A DNA stretch of 64,000 bases from positions 623,291 to 687,290 of the forward strand of contig DLUH01000001.1 in the NCBI GenBank assembly GCA_002742845.1. The letters run 5' to 3'. The position numbers and the translations under genes are program-made. The notes under the pieces were generated by a model. That model saw only the letters and a list, made by a program, of their open reading frames with translations. It was not told the DNA's origin and made no database searches. The DNA comes from Sulfurovum sp. UBA12169 (GTDB lineage: Bacteria; Campylobacterota; Campylobacteria; Campylobacterales; Sulfurovaceae). Position 1 is the stretch's first letter, and each line of letters begins with the position of its first letter. Shown piece by piece: positions 1-6,397 of this stretch.

Positions 1-1892
1 CAAACTTTAATGAATTTCTCATACGCCTCGATTGGCTTAGGCTCACCCAGATAATATCCTTGTGCATATTCGATTTCCAACTCTTTGATTTGCTCATAAA
101 TCATTTCATCGCAGACAAATTCAGCAACCAGTTTGTATTCAAAATCTTTAGCCAATTTTTGGATCGACTGAAGCACGATTTTAGTGCGCCGGAAAGAAGT
201 ATGAAGCTGAGATATAAGATTTCCGTCTATTTTGATAATATCGATATCCAAATGTATCAAATAATAATAGTTTGCATAGCCGCTTCCAAAATCATCGATG
301 GCAATTTTGGAACCGTAAGTTTTTAATTGCTGGAAAATCAATGCGACTTTGTCATAATCTTGTATTTCATGATATTCTAAAATCTCAAACGTCAATCGAT
401 TTGCCACTTCCCTGTTTTTATGGAGATGTTTTGTGATCAGCTTCATCATATCGCTGCTGTACAGATCGTCAAGATCAAGATTGATGCTTACTTGGATATC
501 TGAAAAAGTATGCAGAGTGCTAAAAACTTCCTCCAACACCAATTTGCTCATTTTGATGTATTGTGTGGTGCCTTTGATCACTTTTAAGAAATGATGAGGC
601 GTGATCAGTTTTTTGTCATCTTCTTTGTCGATCAATCGCACCAAAGCCTCGTATTTGATGATTTGTTTTGTTTGGGTGCAAACGATGGGCTGATAAAGAC
701 AGCATACTCTTTTTTCTTCCAGTGCTTCTTTGATATAGTTGATATCGCGGTATCTTAGATCATCGATGCTTTGCAGATCTAAAACGATAAAATTATTTTT
801 CCCGCCGCTTTTCACCTCAAGAAGCTTTTCATCCAGTATCCTTTGTATAGACAGCAAAGAAGATGCGCCCTTCGGAATAACCATGGCGCTCATGGAGATA
901 CTCAAAGAAACGATATTATTGCCCGTAAGGTATTTTTTTTCTTTCAGGATTTCAAACAGCTTTTGTGTCACTATCCCGATCTCGATCTCATTTTTTGGCA
1001 CAACGATAAAAAATTCTGTACCCCCTGTTCTTATGAGCTTTGCTTTTAAAGAAAGTTCGGCCAATACGGCCCGGACAAACTCTTTGATGATAGCATCTCC
1101 GGCATCATAACCGTATTTTTCATTGATCTCTTTAAATTCGTCTATATCGATTAGTATCGCATTGTATTCATCCAGTCTATTGCGGTTAAAAAATTCTTCC
1201 AGATAAAGTTTGGTATGTGCGCCCGTTAACATATCGTTTAAAATGCTTTGACGAAATTTATAGTAACGATACGCCATCAATCCCAGCAGCATCATACTCA
1301 CTATCAAAAAAACTTCCATTAAGCCGACAAGCATTTTCAAAGGAGAGTTGAAACTATTTAAATAATCGGCATATTCTTCTGAAAGATCGACAACCAAAAG
1401 TGCTTGCGTTTGCTCGTCTTCAACGATAGGATAAAGCAATGAAAGCCAAATTTTTTGGGTACCTTCCTGCTGTTTGGCTATGCCTGTTTTTTGCGTCTCA
1501 TACACCCGGTCAAATACACTGCTTTGCGGAAAAAAAATAGTTTTATATTCAACCGCATCTTCTTTTGATCCATCCAGCAAGAACCGGTAGTGCCCCTTGC
1601 TATCTTTTTTAAGCACAAAGATATACTGATACTTTTCATTTAAAAAAGCCTGCAGCACATCATTAAGCTGGCCTCTAAGCTTAGGACTGCTTGTGAGAGC
1701 CGACTCGATATGGTTGTTTGTTTTTGCTTGGAGGTACTGAGCTATTTTTTGGACATAATTTTCTGATTTTTGGATCTCGTCTTTTTTAAGTTTTTCTGTA
1801 TTTTCAACAATAGCATACTGCAAATACAAGGCAAAAAGGATAAGCAATCCTATGATGCCAAAAATAATTCGATTAAAGTATGGCTGCTTCAT
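1..1892 (-). CDS. Membrane GGDEF/EAL c-di-GMP signalling protein (3' end beyond window)
   Basis: At least 630 residues are visible and the frame runs off the left edge with no stop. TM helices lie at about 7-26 and 187-209 and bracket a roughly 160-residue periplasmic sensor region. A GGDEF-type domain follows (about 225-380), but its signature reads RTGGTEF (G290-F294), so the first acidic residue is lost and cyclase activity is doubtful. The EAL domain (from about 395) looks intact: EALVR with E415, a SINL Asn, FEILE, IDDFGSG with D533/D534, a KIDG lysine and the QGYYLGEP segment at Q611. I infer a c-di-GMP phosphodiesterase, perhaps with a GTP-sensing GGDEF. Its ATG overlaps the stop of the upstream gene as ATGA, which indicates translational coupling with the periplasmic and outer-membrane genes before it. 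Confidence 0.9.
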   Translation of the reverse strand, partial: MKQPYFNRIIFGIIGLLILFALYLQYAIVENTEKLKKDEIQKSENYVQKIAQYLQAKTNNHIESALTSSPKLRGQLNDVLQAFLNEKYQYIFVLKKDSKGHYRFLLDGSKEDAVEYKTIFFPQSSVFDRVYETQKTGIAKQQEGTQKIWLSLLYPIVEDEQTQALLVVDLSEEYADYLNSFNSPLKMLVGLMEVFLIVSMMLLGLMAYRYYKFRQSILNDMLTGAHTKLYLEEFFNRNRLDEYNAILIDIDEFKEINEKYGYDAGDAIIKEFVRAVLAELSLKAKLIRTGGTEFFIVVPKNEIEIGIVTQKLFEILKEKKYLTGNNIVSLSISMSAMVIPKGASSLLSIQRILDEKLLEVKSGGKNNFIVLDLQSIDDLRYRDINYIKEALEEKRVCCLYQPIVCTQTKQIIKYEALVRLIDKEDDKKLITPHHFLKVIKGTTQYIKMSKLVLEEVFSTLHTFSDIQVSINLDLDDLYSSDMMKLITKHLHKNREVANRLTFEILEYHEIQDYDKVALIFQQLKTYGSKIAIDDFGSGYANYYYLIHLDIDIIKIDGNLISQLHTSFRRTKIVLQSIQKLAKDFEYKLVAEFVCDEMIYEQIKELEIEYAQGYYLGEPKPIEAYEKFIKV

Positions 1893-2338
1893 AGCTCATC
1901 TATGACAAACTGATCATAACGTTTGGGCACGACAATATGGTGTTTATCTAATCTCTTTTTCAAAAATAACAATTGAGACCGTCCTTTTCTCCAGTAAAAC
2001 GCGCCCACTGCTTTTTCGCATGATTTCAGAAAATGATAATCCGTAGCAAACAAAAGCGGTTTACCTTCAGGGATTTGACCTTTTTTTCTTCTTGCCAGAT
2101 CCAGCATCTCTTCGGTTGTGATCAAAACGATATCGGATTTTTCAAAAGTATTCACCATCTCAATATCGGACGAATGCCTAAATACGCTTCTGTACTCTTT
2201 GTCGTCGACATAAAGATAGATAGGAGCCTTTAGACCAAGGGCCTCAAAGATGGTAGCATACATTTTGAGCGTACTTTCTCTCTCTAAAGCGTATAATTGC
2301 CCGCACAACAGTAAAAAGAAAAAGAAAAATCTTTTCAA
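1889..2338 (-). CDS. Small periplasmic protein, possibly YfiR-like (DUF4154)
   Basis: 149 residues with an N-terminal signal peptide (Phe/Leu-rich core at 4-13, likely cleavage near residue 17 after LYA). The C-terminal half has the layout I associate with YfiR/DUF4154 proteins: a strand ending SDIVLIT, then GKPLLFATDY, an AVGAFYWRKGR turn, a LLFLKKRLDKH strand and a final helix. That match is by eye and weak. YfiR proteins are periplasmic inhibitors of a membrane c-di-GMP enzyme. Here the gene overlaps both neighbours by four bases, with a TonB-type receptor before it and a membrane GGDEF/EAL protein after it, which fits a periplasmic adaptor. A solute-binding fragment is the alternative. 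Confidence 0.7.
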   Translation of the reverse strand: MKRFFFFFLLLCGQLYALERESTLKMYATIFEALGLKAPIYLYVDDKEYRSVFRHSSDIEMVNTFEKSDIVLITTEEMLDLARRKKGQIPEGKPLLFATDYHFLKSCEKAVGAFYWRKGRSQLLFLKKRLDKHHIVVPKRYDQFVIDEL

Positions 2339-4209
2339 AATATATACTCCAGCTCCAGCATGATTCTGCGATCTATCGGTGAGATAGACAAAGGGCTTAA
2401 AAACGAACCGCTAGAGAGGTCATATCTATAAAGATCGGTCTCTTTGGCTTTGTCCAAAAGATTTTCCCCTTTGAGCGTCAGCGTCAAATCTTCGTTGACA
2501 TTCCAGGTCACCGAACTGGTCAAATCCCAATAATTTTCCCAGTCAAGGCTGTTGCGGTGCCACACCAAACCGTTATAAAAATCCAAGTCTTCATACCGTT
2601 TAAAAAAGGTAAAAAACCCGCTCACATCCTCCAGTAAATCAAGTCCAAAAATATTTTTATATTCTGCGTAGTAGACCTGCGTAGTCAGTTTATTATTCGC
2701 ATCAAAACGATAGTCATAATTGAATACCGAAAAGAAATACTTGGTATCGCCTGACGCTCCGGGGTTTTGAACCAGTCCGTCCTCGTCTTTCATCAGAAGC
2801 AGCATCAACCGGATATATTGTTTTTCATCAGTATAAGCAAGCTCCTGCGTAAACCCCAGCGTCTTTTGCGCAGGCACACTCTCAGAAGTTGCATACCCCA
2901 AATATCTGCTTAAAGGATCCAGGGCAAACATCACCCGATACAGATAGGTCTTGTATGTCCAGTGTTCGTTGCCGTAGATATATCCTAAACGAAACTGCAT
3001 TAGGTTGTCATCTTCTACGCCGCCGTTTCTGCCAAAATGAATCCCTTCGATCCCCAACGTCAGCAGCTGATTTTCTGCAAGGGTATACTGGTCTTGCAAG
3101 AAAAGCGAAGCGATCGCTTCGCTGTCAAAATCCAAAGATATCTCCCCCCTACCCTGGGCACTCAAACGGTCAAGCTGTTTGAGCCTGCCTTTGACGCCTG
3201 CAGCGATCCTGTGTTTCCCAATCGTCTCTTGATAGGTCAGCTCCCCCGTATAAGCACTTGTCGTTGCCTCGGCATCCAACTCTGTTAGGCCGGGCGAAAA
3301 AAGACCCAGATAAAGCAAAGGAGTATCATCTTTGGCATAGATCCCTTTCTCAAGCCAGTCATAAGAAAACTGTGCGCGCCAATTCGCATCAAGATCGATC
3401 CCGTAGTCCATATGCACATTCAAATAATCCATTTTGCTGGCCTCAGGCGTCGCATCGTAACTAAGACCGGCCAAAGAATCGGCATTTTTCTTCATCACTT
3501 GAAGATGAAAGGTTTGATCATCTGTTTTGACATATGAAAAAAGCTGTGTGGTCTCATAGTCCCTTGACAAAGGAAGAGAGGTGCCGTTGTCTATCTTTTC
3601 GCGCTTCTCTTTGGTATGCGAAAAGTTAATCATATGAGCAAAATCTTTCTCTTGCTTGGCATAGCTGAGCGTTTGGGCATTATACCCCCTGCTTCCTCCG
3701 CTTAGGCCCAGTTGCCCTCCGCCGTCACGCTTGGGATCTTTGGAATAAAGAAAGATCGTCAGATAGGCAGGCTCCACAGAACTTTCGAAAGAAGGAATCA
3801 TATAGTAAAACTCGATATGATCGACAAAATCGATATTGATATCCCCATACAGTACCAGTCCGCTTCCTGCCCACCCCTGGGTGATCTCCACCCCGTCGAT
3901 GTAGAGCCGTATAAAATTGCTCCGGTAAGGCTCAAACGCACCGCTGGTAAGCGGATCGGGCAAGCCGAATCTGTTCTCATGATAATAGATCACCGGCGTA
4001 GTTTTGAAAACATCTCTAAGTGTTTTGGCACGCATCTCTTCAAGCTGTTCTCTGCCAAAAAGCACCAAATGCCCTTTGTTCTCATCGATAGTCTTTTGAC
4101 TTAAAGCATTTTTTTTGTCAAACTCCTGCATCATACCCTCAACACTTTGCGCATTGGCGGCAATGCACAAAAATACGCATAAAAGCGATACGCGCCTTAG
4201 TACGTTCAT
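2335..4209 (-). CDS. TonB-dependent receptor-type outer-membrane protein
   Basis: About 624 residues from the chosen ATG, which gives a normal signal peptide (NVLRRVSLLCVFLCIAANA). In-frame ATGs upstream extend to 4248 but put 13 residues before it, and none of these starts has a convincing ribosome site. After the signal comes a plug domain (about 35-160) with LRDVFKTTPVIYYHE and the typical RLYIDGVEITQG segment. A beta-barrel of alternating aromatic strands follows and ends in Phe (LELEYIF), as outer-membrane barrels do. Transport substrate is not evident, and no siderophore or metal genes are nearby. The gene overlaps the next one by four bases, so the receptor may signal to the downstream c-di-GMP enzyme rather than feed a transporter. 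The start is uncertain. Confidence 0.88.
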   Translation of the reverse strand: MNVLRRVSLLCVFLCIAANAQSVEGMMQEFDKKNALSQKTIDENKGHLVLFGREQLEEMRAKTLRDVFKTTPVIYYHENRFGLPDPLTSGAFEPYRSNFIRLYIDGVEITQGWAGSGLVLYGDINIDFVDHIEFYYMIPSFESSVEPAYLTIFLYSKDPKRDGGGQLGLSGGSRGYNAQTLSYAKQEKDFAHMINFSHTKEKREKIDNGTSLPLSRDYETTQLFSYVKTDDQTFHLQVMKKNADSLAGLSYDATPEASKMDYLNVHMDYGIDLDANWRAQFSYDWLEKGIYAKDDTPLLYLGLFSPGLTELDAEATTSAYTGELTYQETIGKHRIAAGVKGRLKQLDRLSAQGRGEISLDFDSEAIASLFLQDQYTLAENQLLTLGIEGIHFGRNGGVEDDNLMQFRLGYIYGNEHWTYKTYLYRVMFALDPLSRYLGYATSESVPAQKTLGFTQELAYTDEKQYIRLMLLLMKDEDGLVQNPGASGDTKYFFSVFNYDYRFDANNKLTTQVYYAEYKNIFGLDLLEDVSGFFTFFKRYEDLDFYNGLVWHRNSLDWENYWDLTSSVTWNVNEDLTLTLKGENLLDKAKETDLYRYDLSSGSFLSPLSISPIDRRIMLELEYIF

Positions 4210-4362
4210 TCCTTTTAAAAAACTTCCCATCCCTTGTCCATTTCTCATAAAATTTGAACCTAAGTATATCTCAACTCAAATAAAATACATATTTTTTAGT
4301 ATATTCTTATCAAGTACGTTTTATACTACTGCATCAAATTCAACAGAAAGACAGATATCCCT

Positions 4363-5190
4363 ATGACAAACAACGAAGCTTTTAAGATCCTGACAGAAGA
4401 GTACACCCTTAAACTTGCAACCACGCAAGAAGACTTTCAAGCAGTCAAAGCCGTAAGAGCTGAAGTATTTGCTCCCAAATACAATATGTCACGCGAACTT
4501 CTTGAAAGCAAAGGGTATCTTTTTAGTGAAGACGACAAGCAATCATTTTTATTTCTTTTGCAGCATACCCGCACAGGAAGATATGTAGGAACAGCGAGAA
4601 ATTTTTTTATAAACTCTGATTCAAAAATACTTTCAATGCCCATGCAAAAAGATGGGCACGTAGAGGGAATTGATCATCTTGTCAACAATATACCAATTTG
4701 TGAAATTTCTAGAATGGCGCTTTCAAATCAACTAGATTCCTATAAAGATTTTTCTGAACTTAAATTAAGAAATTATCTTTCTTTAGGATTAATGATTACC
4801 ACAAGAATAAATTTTTTTCTTTATCGATATGCTATTATTTTTGCAATCATGGAACCTTCTTTGCATCGCATACTTAAAAGACAAGGTGTCAATTTCGAAC
4901 AAATAGGGGAGCCTGTAGATTACTATGGCATGAGAACCCCTTTTGCAATCGACAGAAAAAAACTGTTAAAAGAAACCGAAGAATCAATGGGCGACATCAC
5001 AAGGCACTACCTCAAAGCGCTCTGCAAAGATCCTGAGCCTTTTTGGCAGTTTATCGATGCCAACCCTTACCTGGACCGGTCGGATATCCGGCTTGAAAAG
5101 ATCTGCGAACTTTTTAAAACCCATGGCGAGGACGTAGAGCTGTCATACCTGCTTGAAGAAAATGAAGAGATGGCTGCGGCAAACGCATAA
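4363..5190 (+). CDS. N-acyl amino acid synthase / PEP-CTERM-associated acyltransferase-like GNAT protein
   Basis: 275 residues with the fold signature of LuxI/FeeM-type acyltransferases, which move an acyl chain from acyl-ACP to an amino acid or homoserine lactone. VRAEVF (31-36) precedes GTAR (76-79), and the LuxI-like EISRMALS block starts at 114. The C-terminal block MEPSLHRILKRQG (163-175) with IGEPVDYYGMRTPF (181-194) is characteristic of the family annotated as PEP-CTERM/exosortase-associated acyltransferases. No exosortase, PEP-CTERM protein or LuxR-type receptor is visible here, so the acyl product and role are unknown. It is a single gene with an acidic tail, transcribed divergently from the TonB receptor operon. 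A plain GNAT acetyltransferase is less likely given the C-terminal block. Confidence 0.75.
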   Translation: MTNNEAFKILTEEYTLKLATTQEDFQAVKAVRAEVFAPKYNMSRELLESKGYLFSEDDKQSFLFLLQHTRTGRYVGTARNFFINSDSKILSMPMQKDGHVEGIDHLVNNIPICEISRMALSNQLDSYKDFSELKLRNYLSLGLMITTRINFFLYRYAIIFAIMEPSLHRILKRQGVNFEQIGEPVDYYGMRTPFAIDRKKLLKETEESMGDITRHYLKALCKDPEPFWQFIDANPYLDRSDIRLEKICELFKTHGEDVELSYLLEENEEMAAANA

Positions 5191-5482: not shown

Positions 5483-6397
5483 CTAGTTAAACCTAAAACT
5501 TCGTAATTTTGCCGATCTGCTTCTGGGATTGGATTTAAGCTCCTTGTTGCTTGCAGTGATGGGCTTTCGTGTCAACACTTTTCCCAAGGCATGGTTTTTG
5601 CCGCAGGTACATCGTATCGCATGAGGATCACAAATGCACGCCGTGCTCCATTTTTTAAAACGCTCTTTCACTAAACGGTCTTCAAGAGAATGGAATGTAA
5701 TAAGTGAAACCACTTCTTGCGGATAGTGTTTCGCCTCTATGGCATCAAGAAGCCCTTCTATCTCTCCCAATTCATTGTTGACCTCTATGCGTATCGCTTG
5801 AAACATTAACGTTGCAGGGTGGATTTTTCCTCCGGGAGGTATCACTTGCTTGGCGATTTCGCTCAATGCTTTTGCGCTGCTTATAGGTGTTTTTGAGCGT
5901 GCCTCTATGACAGCTGCTGCCAATTTTTTAAAAGAGCGAATTTCGCCATAGATATCAAAAATATACTCCAATTTCTCCTGAGAATACGTATTGACCACCT
6001 CATAAGCCGACAAAGAGGCTGCGGAATCCATGCGCATATCCAAAGTACTGCTTTCAAAACTGAATCCTCTCTCTTTTTTATCCAGCTGCAAAGAAGAAAC
6101 GCCAAAATCTGCAAGCAAAGCAACAATGGGTTCTTCTTTAAGCGTAGGGAGCACAGCAGCAAATGTTCCCTTATAAAGCGTGCTTCTGTTTGCATAAGAC
6201 TCAAGACGTTTCTTTGAAAATGCCAATGCTTCATCATCACGGTCTATCCCTATATGTTTAAGATGGGGGTAGCGAGACAGCATATGGAAACTATGGCCTG
6301 CATACCCCAGGGTACAGTCAACAAAATATCCGTCCCTCACATCGGAAAAACTCTCCAATACCTCTTCAAGCAATACAGGAATGTGAGGTGCTTGCAC
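5483..6397 (-). CDS. rsmH: 16S rRNA (cytosine1402-N4)-methyltransferase
   Basis: 304 residues, normal for RsmH/MraW, which methylates N4 of C1402 in the decoding region of 16S rRNA using S-adenosylmethionine. Seen in the sequence: the opening HIPVLLEEVL, the SAM-binding VDCTLGYAGHS, a second motif ALLADFGVSSLQLD, RGFSFESSTLDMRMD, and the C-terminal LITFHSLEDRLVKERFK block followed by a cysteine-rich CICDPHAIRCTCG segment. It is the first gene of a two-gene unit with the ftsL-like gene, on the strand opposite to the aldolase-like gene, from which it is separated by a short promoter region. Confidence 0.96.
   Translation of the reverse strand: MQAPHIPVLLEEVLESFSDVRDGYFVDCTLGYAGHSFHMLSRYPHLKHIGIDRDDEALAFSKKRLESYANRSTLYKGTFAAVLPTLKEEPIVALLADFGVSSLQLDKKERGFSFESSTLDMRMDSAASLSAYEVVNTYSQEKLEYIFDIYGEIRSFKKLAAAVIEARSKTPISSAKALSEIAKQVIPPGGKIHPATLMFQAIRIEVNNELGEIEGLLDAIEAKHYPQEVVSLITFHSLEDRLVKERFKKWSTACICDPHAIRCTCGKNHALGKVLTRKPITASNKELKSNPRSRSAKLRSFRFN

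Follow-up and report, generated by a model that had tools for sequence, protein, structure and literature searches.

A TonB-type receptor, a YfiR-like periplasmic protein and an exchangeable output: an operon of Campylobacterales that looks like a signalling relay across the cell envelope

The stretch of DNA analysed here, 64,000 nucleotides of Sulfurovum sp. UBA12169 (hereafter the window), carries in its first 4248 positions (1-4248) three minus-strand open reading frames (ORFs), which encode, in this order, the TonB-type receptor of the operon (TBDR), a 149-aa secreted middle protein (MID) and a membrane GGDEF-EAL protein (Table 1). The initial annotation had described three genes overlapping by four bases at both junctions and had assigned their products to a TonB-type receptor, a 149-residue secreted protein and a membrane GGDEF/EAL protein with a periplasmic region; we confirmed both the overlaps, which read TTGA and ATGA, and the kinds of protein. 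Chance as an explanation of the four-base overlaps was rejected, since the order of the trio recurs in all 63 loci fetched. The window edge cuts off a single base of the GGDEF-EAL gene, in its stop codon, and the operon is followed downstream by a DUF2018 gene and then by housekeeping genes. The nearest public relatives found were two MAGs, one assigned to Sulfurovum sp. and the other to Campylobacterota (85% identity in MID).

Table 1. Features of the receptor-MID-enzyme operon in the window
Feature	Position	Strand	Basis
TonB-dependent-receptor-like outer-membrane protein, 637 aa, first gene	2335..4248	-	Plug family, C-terminal Phe, no STN
Overlap TTGA, 4 nt, receptor stop with MID TTG start	2335..2338	-	sequence; exactly 4 nt in 32/59 scored loci
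MID, 149 aa, TTG start, secreted periplasmic protein with predicted YfiR-like fold	1889..2338	-	AF2, Foldseek
Signature beta-hairpin of MID, residues 110-126, GAFYWRKGRSQL in the window; family G-A-F-F-W-Q-K-G-R-P-N-I	1961..2011	-	conservation
Overlap ATGA, 4 nt, MID stop with enzyme start	1889..1892	-	sequence; 4 nt in 38/61 loci
Membrane GGDEF-EAL protein, 630 aa	1..1892 (ORF 3-1892)	-	ORF, GGDEF and EAL matches
Sensor part, residues 1-218: TM helix, single PDC/Cache-like periplasmic domain, TM helix	1239..1892	-	AF2, synteny
GGDEF domain, predicted catalytically dead	792..1235	-	motif
Degenerate active-site motif GGTEF, D/E replaced by T	1011..1025	-	alignment
EAL domain with all expected catalytic residues	39..734	-	alignment

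The receptor in the window matched the Pfam Plug family below threshold (E = 0.0034), and among 50 of its relatives Plug was matched in 46 (best E value 3.4e-11) and the TonB barrel in 8. Its C-terminus reads ...LEYIF, the terminal Phe being invariant in the family. With a plug and a barrel that ends in an aromatic residue, the family fits the TonB-dependent receptors as judged by sequence. No STN domain was matched among the 50 relatives, and the stretch of approximately 30 mature residues that precedes the plug is too short for one. Four TonB proteins are encoded in the genome that carries the window. At one locus (L056), two tandem receptors of 628 and 620 aa are found upstream of one MID (5878-6288), which suggests receptor duplication within the module.

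To place the operon among its relatives, 249 Campylobacterales genomes drawn across the order were surveyed and 63 MID loci were read with their flanks. MID was found in 91 of the 249 genomes and the sensor domain of the third protein in 90, the two occurring together in 88 (Fisher P = 5e-61). All of the 63 loci have a receptor as the gene immediately before MID, 59 of them directly and four after correction of over-long MID start calls that had hidden it. On the other side of MID, a genome-wide sensor search placed 100 of 105 sensor matches directly downstream and on the same strand; 14 of 114 MID matches are not followed by a sensor, several of these being weak or located at contig ends. The survey of co-occurrence, by which the initial annotation had proposed to check its reading, thus returned a near-obligate gene order. 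Flanking genes vary between loci, and the trio stays together across many families.

Of the 63 loci, 45 have a gene for a GGDEF-EAL protein downstream of MID, 4 have one for a protein with GGDEF alone and 7 have one for a histidine kinase, several of the kinase loci continuing with a response-regulator EAL protein; in the remaining loci an output gene is absent, the next gene is HAD-like and unrelated, or the contig ends. The sensor is homologous across the GGDEF-EAL forms, the GGDEF forms and all but one of the seven kinase forms (E values from 1e-66 to 1e-36). Because the same sensor fronts GGDEF-only and histidine-kinase proteins, MID follows the sensor and not the output. Parsimony on a tree of MID and sensor gave approximately five output changes, two of which are forced by strong branches. 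The constant unit is receptor-MID-sensor, and the output is exchangeable.

Some loci show other arrangements. Extra receptor-MID pairs followed by a HAD-like protein of 153-160 aa were observed at L051, L052, L053 and L061, in genomes (G040, G140 and G093) that also hold a full trio elsewhere. Orphan MID homologues with neither receptor nor sensor occur at L162:4088-4507 and L163:4462-4881, the former beside mot-like flagellar motor genes. In a genome of the same genus as the window (G242, locus L041), the trio has a histidine kinase, and the genes after it encode a second kinase, whose periplasmic part is SBP-like, and a hybrid kinase; the output thus differs within one genus.

MID has a signal-peptide-like N-terminus. 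The AlphaFold (AF2) model of the protein in the window (pLDDT 90.5) matched solved YfiR (4zhu) over its full length in Foldseek (TMq 0.57, TMt 0.56, E = 7e-3, probability 1.00), and its matches also include 3lkv and 3lft, the closest Dali neighbours of YfiR itself according to the paper on the YfiR structure (PMC4655355). Lobes of substrate-binding proteins match the fold as well, some of them at better E values (8wgl, 3.5e-4); a binding protein of Rhodothermus is among the matches with a somewhat better value. An HMM search of the 149-residue protein against DUF4154/YfiR had been proposed as a check, and at the curated cut-off DUF4154 (PF13689) gave no match in the genome of the window and none among 62 MID members. 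As a positive control, 32 of the 249 genomes pass the same cut-off at loci other than those of MID, and these Campylobacterales DUF4154 proteins match solved YfiR by sequence at 2e-10. Comparison of MID with DUF4154 by hhalign gave 92.8% with the signal peptides included, a value inflated by them, and P = 0.003 with a probability of 10% after trimming, in collinear register, a marginal link by sequence. The two conserved cysteine pairs of YfiR are not conserved in the 62 MID members; one two-cysteine pair is present in 31 of the 62 and absent from the MID of the window, which has a single mature cysteine. The MID profile returned a chance match only when compared with PDB sequences. Altogether, the proposal of a YfiR-like middle protein holds for the modelled fold (TM 0.57 to 4zhu) and fails for membership of DUF4154, and MID is best called a separate family with a predicted YfiR-like fold, outside DUF4154. 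Residues Y101, G112, K118 and R120 are invariant in the 62 MID sequences, W116 is present in 61, and the signature hairpin is a plausible candidate for a contact or binding surface.

In the third protein, GGDEF and EAL were matched at 1.2e-17 and 1.5e-51, respectively. The AF2 model of residues 1-218 (pLDDT 87.4) places a single PDC/Cache-like domain between two helices and is most like the extracellular domain of WalK (TMt up to 0.73, with 9a5d and 4ywz among the structures matched); the Pfam search of this part returned weak dCache/PDC matches only. The YfiR-binding motif AAVVF, described for YfiN (Malone et al. 2012, PMC3375315), occurs in 0 of 50 sensors. In the cytoplasmic part, GG[DE]EF is kept in 39 of 43 aligned sequences, and loss of the D/E residue is confined to the clade of the window, a strongly supported group in the tree comprising six sequences (one truncated) that read GGTEF, AGTEF, GGAEF or GGSEF. 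The D/E residue of the GGDEF motif is required for cyclase activity. The EAL residues expected for catalysis are all present (E415, R419, N471, E503, D533/D534, K554, E591 and Q611), and the DDFGSG loop is intact. Because the GGDEF residue is lost and the EAL domain intact, the predicted output in this clade is phosphodiesterase activity and probably not that of a cyclase. The initial annotation, which had spoken of a c-di-GMP enzyme, is thereby corrected in one respect: with a motif that reads GGTEF, this enzyme is most likely a phosphodiesterase. A c-di-GMP network exists in the genome of the window, since four EAL and five GGDEF matches were found there; the same genome gave no PilZ match.

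The layout of the operon resembles that of YfiBNR (TpbB) of Pseudomonas aeruginosa and its HmsCDE-type homologues, in which a YfiR-fold periplasmic protein likewise stands beside a membrane c-di-GMP protein, and the likeness extends to a PAS-like periplasmic domain on the enzyme, an outer-membrane partner and the relay arrangement as such. In contrast to YfiBNR, the outer-membrane partner of the trio is a TonB-dependent receptor and not an OmpA-like lipoprotein: no gene for such a lipoprotein (YfiB) adjoins the MID loci, and the TonB-type receptor occupies its slot. The trio differs further in that MID lies outside DUF4154 by sequence, the sensor lacks AAVVF and is not recognised as a YfiN-type domain, and the output in the window is EAL with a GGDEF domain predicted to be dead. 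In systems of the FecA/FpvA type, a TonB receptor signals through its STN domain and an anti-sigma factor. These systems share with the trio an outer-membrane receptor as the signal input, whereas the trio has no STN domain and no adjacent sigma or anti-sigma genes, and its output is a second-messenger enzyme or a kinase. In the WalK-YycH/YycI system of Firmicutes, an extracytoplasmic Cache/PAS-like domain is controlled by accessory extracytoplasmic proteins; the trio shares the kind of domain and the use of accessory proteins, but in WalK the accessories are different, there is no outer membrane and the output is a kinase only. Malone et al. 2012 (PMC3375315) reported YfiNR pairs that lack YfiB and whose output is GGDEF-EAL or a kinase; these resemble the trio in the modular exchange of outputs behind a YfiR-regulated sensor; the passages of that survey that concern such operons give no YfiB homologue in them and mention neither a TonB receptor nor the Campylobacterales family.

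On balance, we favour the interpretation that the operon forms a tripartite envelope relay of the YfiNR type with a TonB-dependent receptor in the outer-membrane slot. Its best reading is that of a divergent variant, working like YfiNR, with the TBDR where YfiB would be. A YfiBNR-like relay with a TonB receptor in place of YfiB had already been proposed in the initial annotation, and this proposal is supported in part, by the conserved gene order and the YfiR-like fold, though not with respect to DUF4154. The physical contacts, the ligand, the sign of regulation and the actual enzyme activity of such a relay are what we infer. By analogy with YfiR, MID would bind the Cache-like inner-membrane sensor. 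At the plug of the receptor, either a bound ligand or a movement driven by TonB would alter the availability of MID, which the periplasmic face of the receptor may sequester or release, and this availability would toggle the cytoplasmic output. In the genome of the window, the output would be an EAL phosphodiesterase whose GGDEF domain is dead and may sense GTP, and the relay would lower c-di-GMP; in relatives, the same receptor-MID-sensor front end would drive GGDEF-EAL, GGDEF or histidine-kinase outputs.

Further support for a relay comes from genuine members of YfiR/DUF4154, which stand in the same TBDR-YfiR-output order. DUF4154 proteins of Campylobacterales, encoded at other loci, are often located between a protein of 620-680 aa, receptor-like in several loci, and a GGDEF or GGDEF-EAL protein. 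Plasmids of Pseudoalteromonas, Caballeronia and Paraburkholderia are annotated with a TonB-dependent receptor, a YfiR family protein and an EAL domain protein, and in Sphingobium the annotation reads TonB-dependent receptor, YfiR and ATP-binding protein (example records of such sets in Proteobacteria are NZ_CP013139, NZ_CP084288, NZ_CP110397 and NZ_CP013071). The Proteobacterial sets have the same order and the same kinds of protein as the trio, with EAL or histidine-kinase outputs, and in some loci a receptor weakly related to that of the trio (L149, E = 1.7e-9). They differ in that the middle protein is a recognisable DUF4154 member and in that the profiles of MID and of the sensor both find no match there; MID itself gave no match in the annotated plasmids. 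A literature search, with subscription journals mostly outside it, returned no paper tying YfiR to a TonB receptor, which is not proof of novelty, and within the same scope no functional description of the Proteobacterial sets was found. A second YfiR arrangement within Campylobacterales, in which a true DUF4154 protein is followed by a protein of 750-800 aa (weakly receptor-like in L137), was seen at L126-L131, L134 and L136-L139.

The main rival of a relay by adaptor sequestration is a ligand-carrier chain, in which a compound imported by the receptor is bound by MID, here a small ligand-binding protein of the periplasm, and handed on to the Cache-like sensor, in the way that the binding protein NspS serves MbaA. 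What Cache-like domains sense is usually a small molecule or a binding protein, and the sensor of the trio is of this kind. The best Foldseek matches of MID include the substrate-binding-protein lobes 8wgl, 3lkv and 3lft; MID, however, consists of one lobe of approximately 130 mature residues, without the two-lobe cleft of binding proteins, and its most conserved part is the hairpin turn (KGRP), which is more like a protein contact than a pocket. A possible parallel to such a chain is found in Cycloclasticus, where pahS, pahP and pahK (outer-membrane receptor, periplasmic binding protein and histidine kinase) have consecutive locus tags and were all hit when genes for growth on aromatic hydrocarbons were screened for (PMC8547461), whereas YfiR is related to the same lobes in the same manner and yet acts as a repressor (PMC4655355). 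We regard the carrier chain as unlikely, although it deserves to be kept in view beside the adaptor relay. Mere co-regulation, with a receptor that imports a nutrient while the enzyme and MID work separately from it, would account for four-base overlaps, which suggest translational coupling and not contact; it appears distinctly improbable, as the trio stays intact while its flanking genes differ, and an almost 1:1 linkage of receptor, MID and sensor with swapping outputs is not predicted by plain co-regulation. Least probable of all is that the GGDEF-EAL protein of the window clade is inactive on both sides and serves as a LapD-like c-di-GMP receptor, a reading suggested by the lost GGDEF motif, a similar architecture and a match of the NCBIfam LapD profile to the GGDEF-EAL part (8.6e-36, far below its cut-off) but opposed by the intact EAL residues and DDFGSG loop and by a periplasmic domain in which Pfam recognised no LapD type.

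The way in which events at the outer membrane set c-di-GMP is known for few systems, and what YfiBNR takes as its input is not established. If a receptor that binds a ligand stands where YfiB would be, the input of the YfiR class could be identified, and the question of what YfiR senses would become directly testable. The trio looks like a widespread, undescribed signalling relay across the cell envelope. If this is true, it would explain an otherwise orphan c-di-GMP or kinase protein in more than one third of the sampled Campylobacterales genomes, among them lineages that have no DUF4154 homologue, and would show that opposite outputs can be wired to one and the same receptor front end. More tentatively, TonB-dependent receptors may be general signalling receptors independent of STN domains and sigma factors. 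A YfiR-fold adaptor (DUF4154 in Proteobacteria, an unnamed divergent family in Campylobacterales) would then couple the receptor to a Cache-like sensor with interchangeable outputs (cyclase, phosphodiesterase or kinase), and the availability of an external ligand would be read directly into c-di-GMP or phosphorelay signalling.

A gene for a 275-aa acyltransferase (4363-5190, plus strand) is located 114 bp upstream of the operon and is divergently transcribed. The protein is related to the exosortase-associated acyltransferase TIGR03694 (E = 1e-22, below its cut-off), with a weaker relation to Autoind_synth. Only 4 of the 249 genomes have a clear homologue (E below 1e-80), and in all four the acyltransferase adjoins a trio with a degenerate GGDEF; the kinase-type trio at L041 is without it. 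It could, speculatively, make a signal that is read by the receptor. A short exosortase-like match is also present in the genome of the window (G000:C5:338886-339359), on a contig other than that of the acyltransferase.
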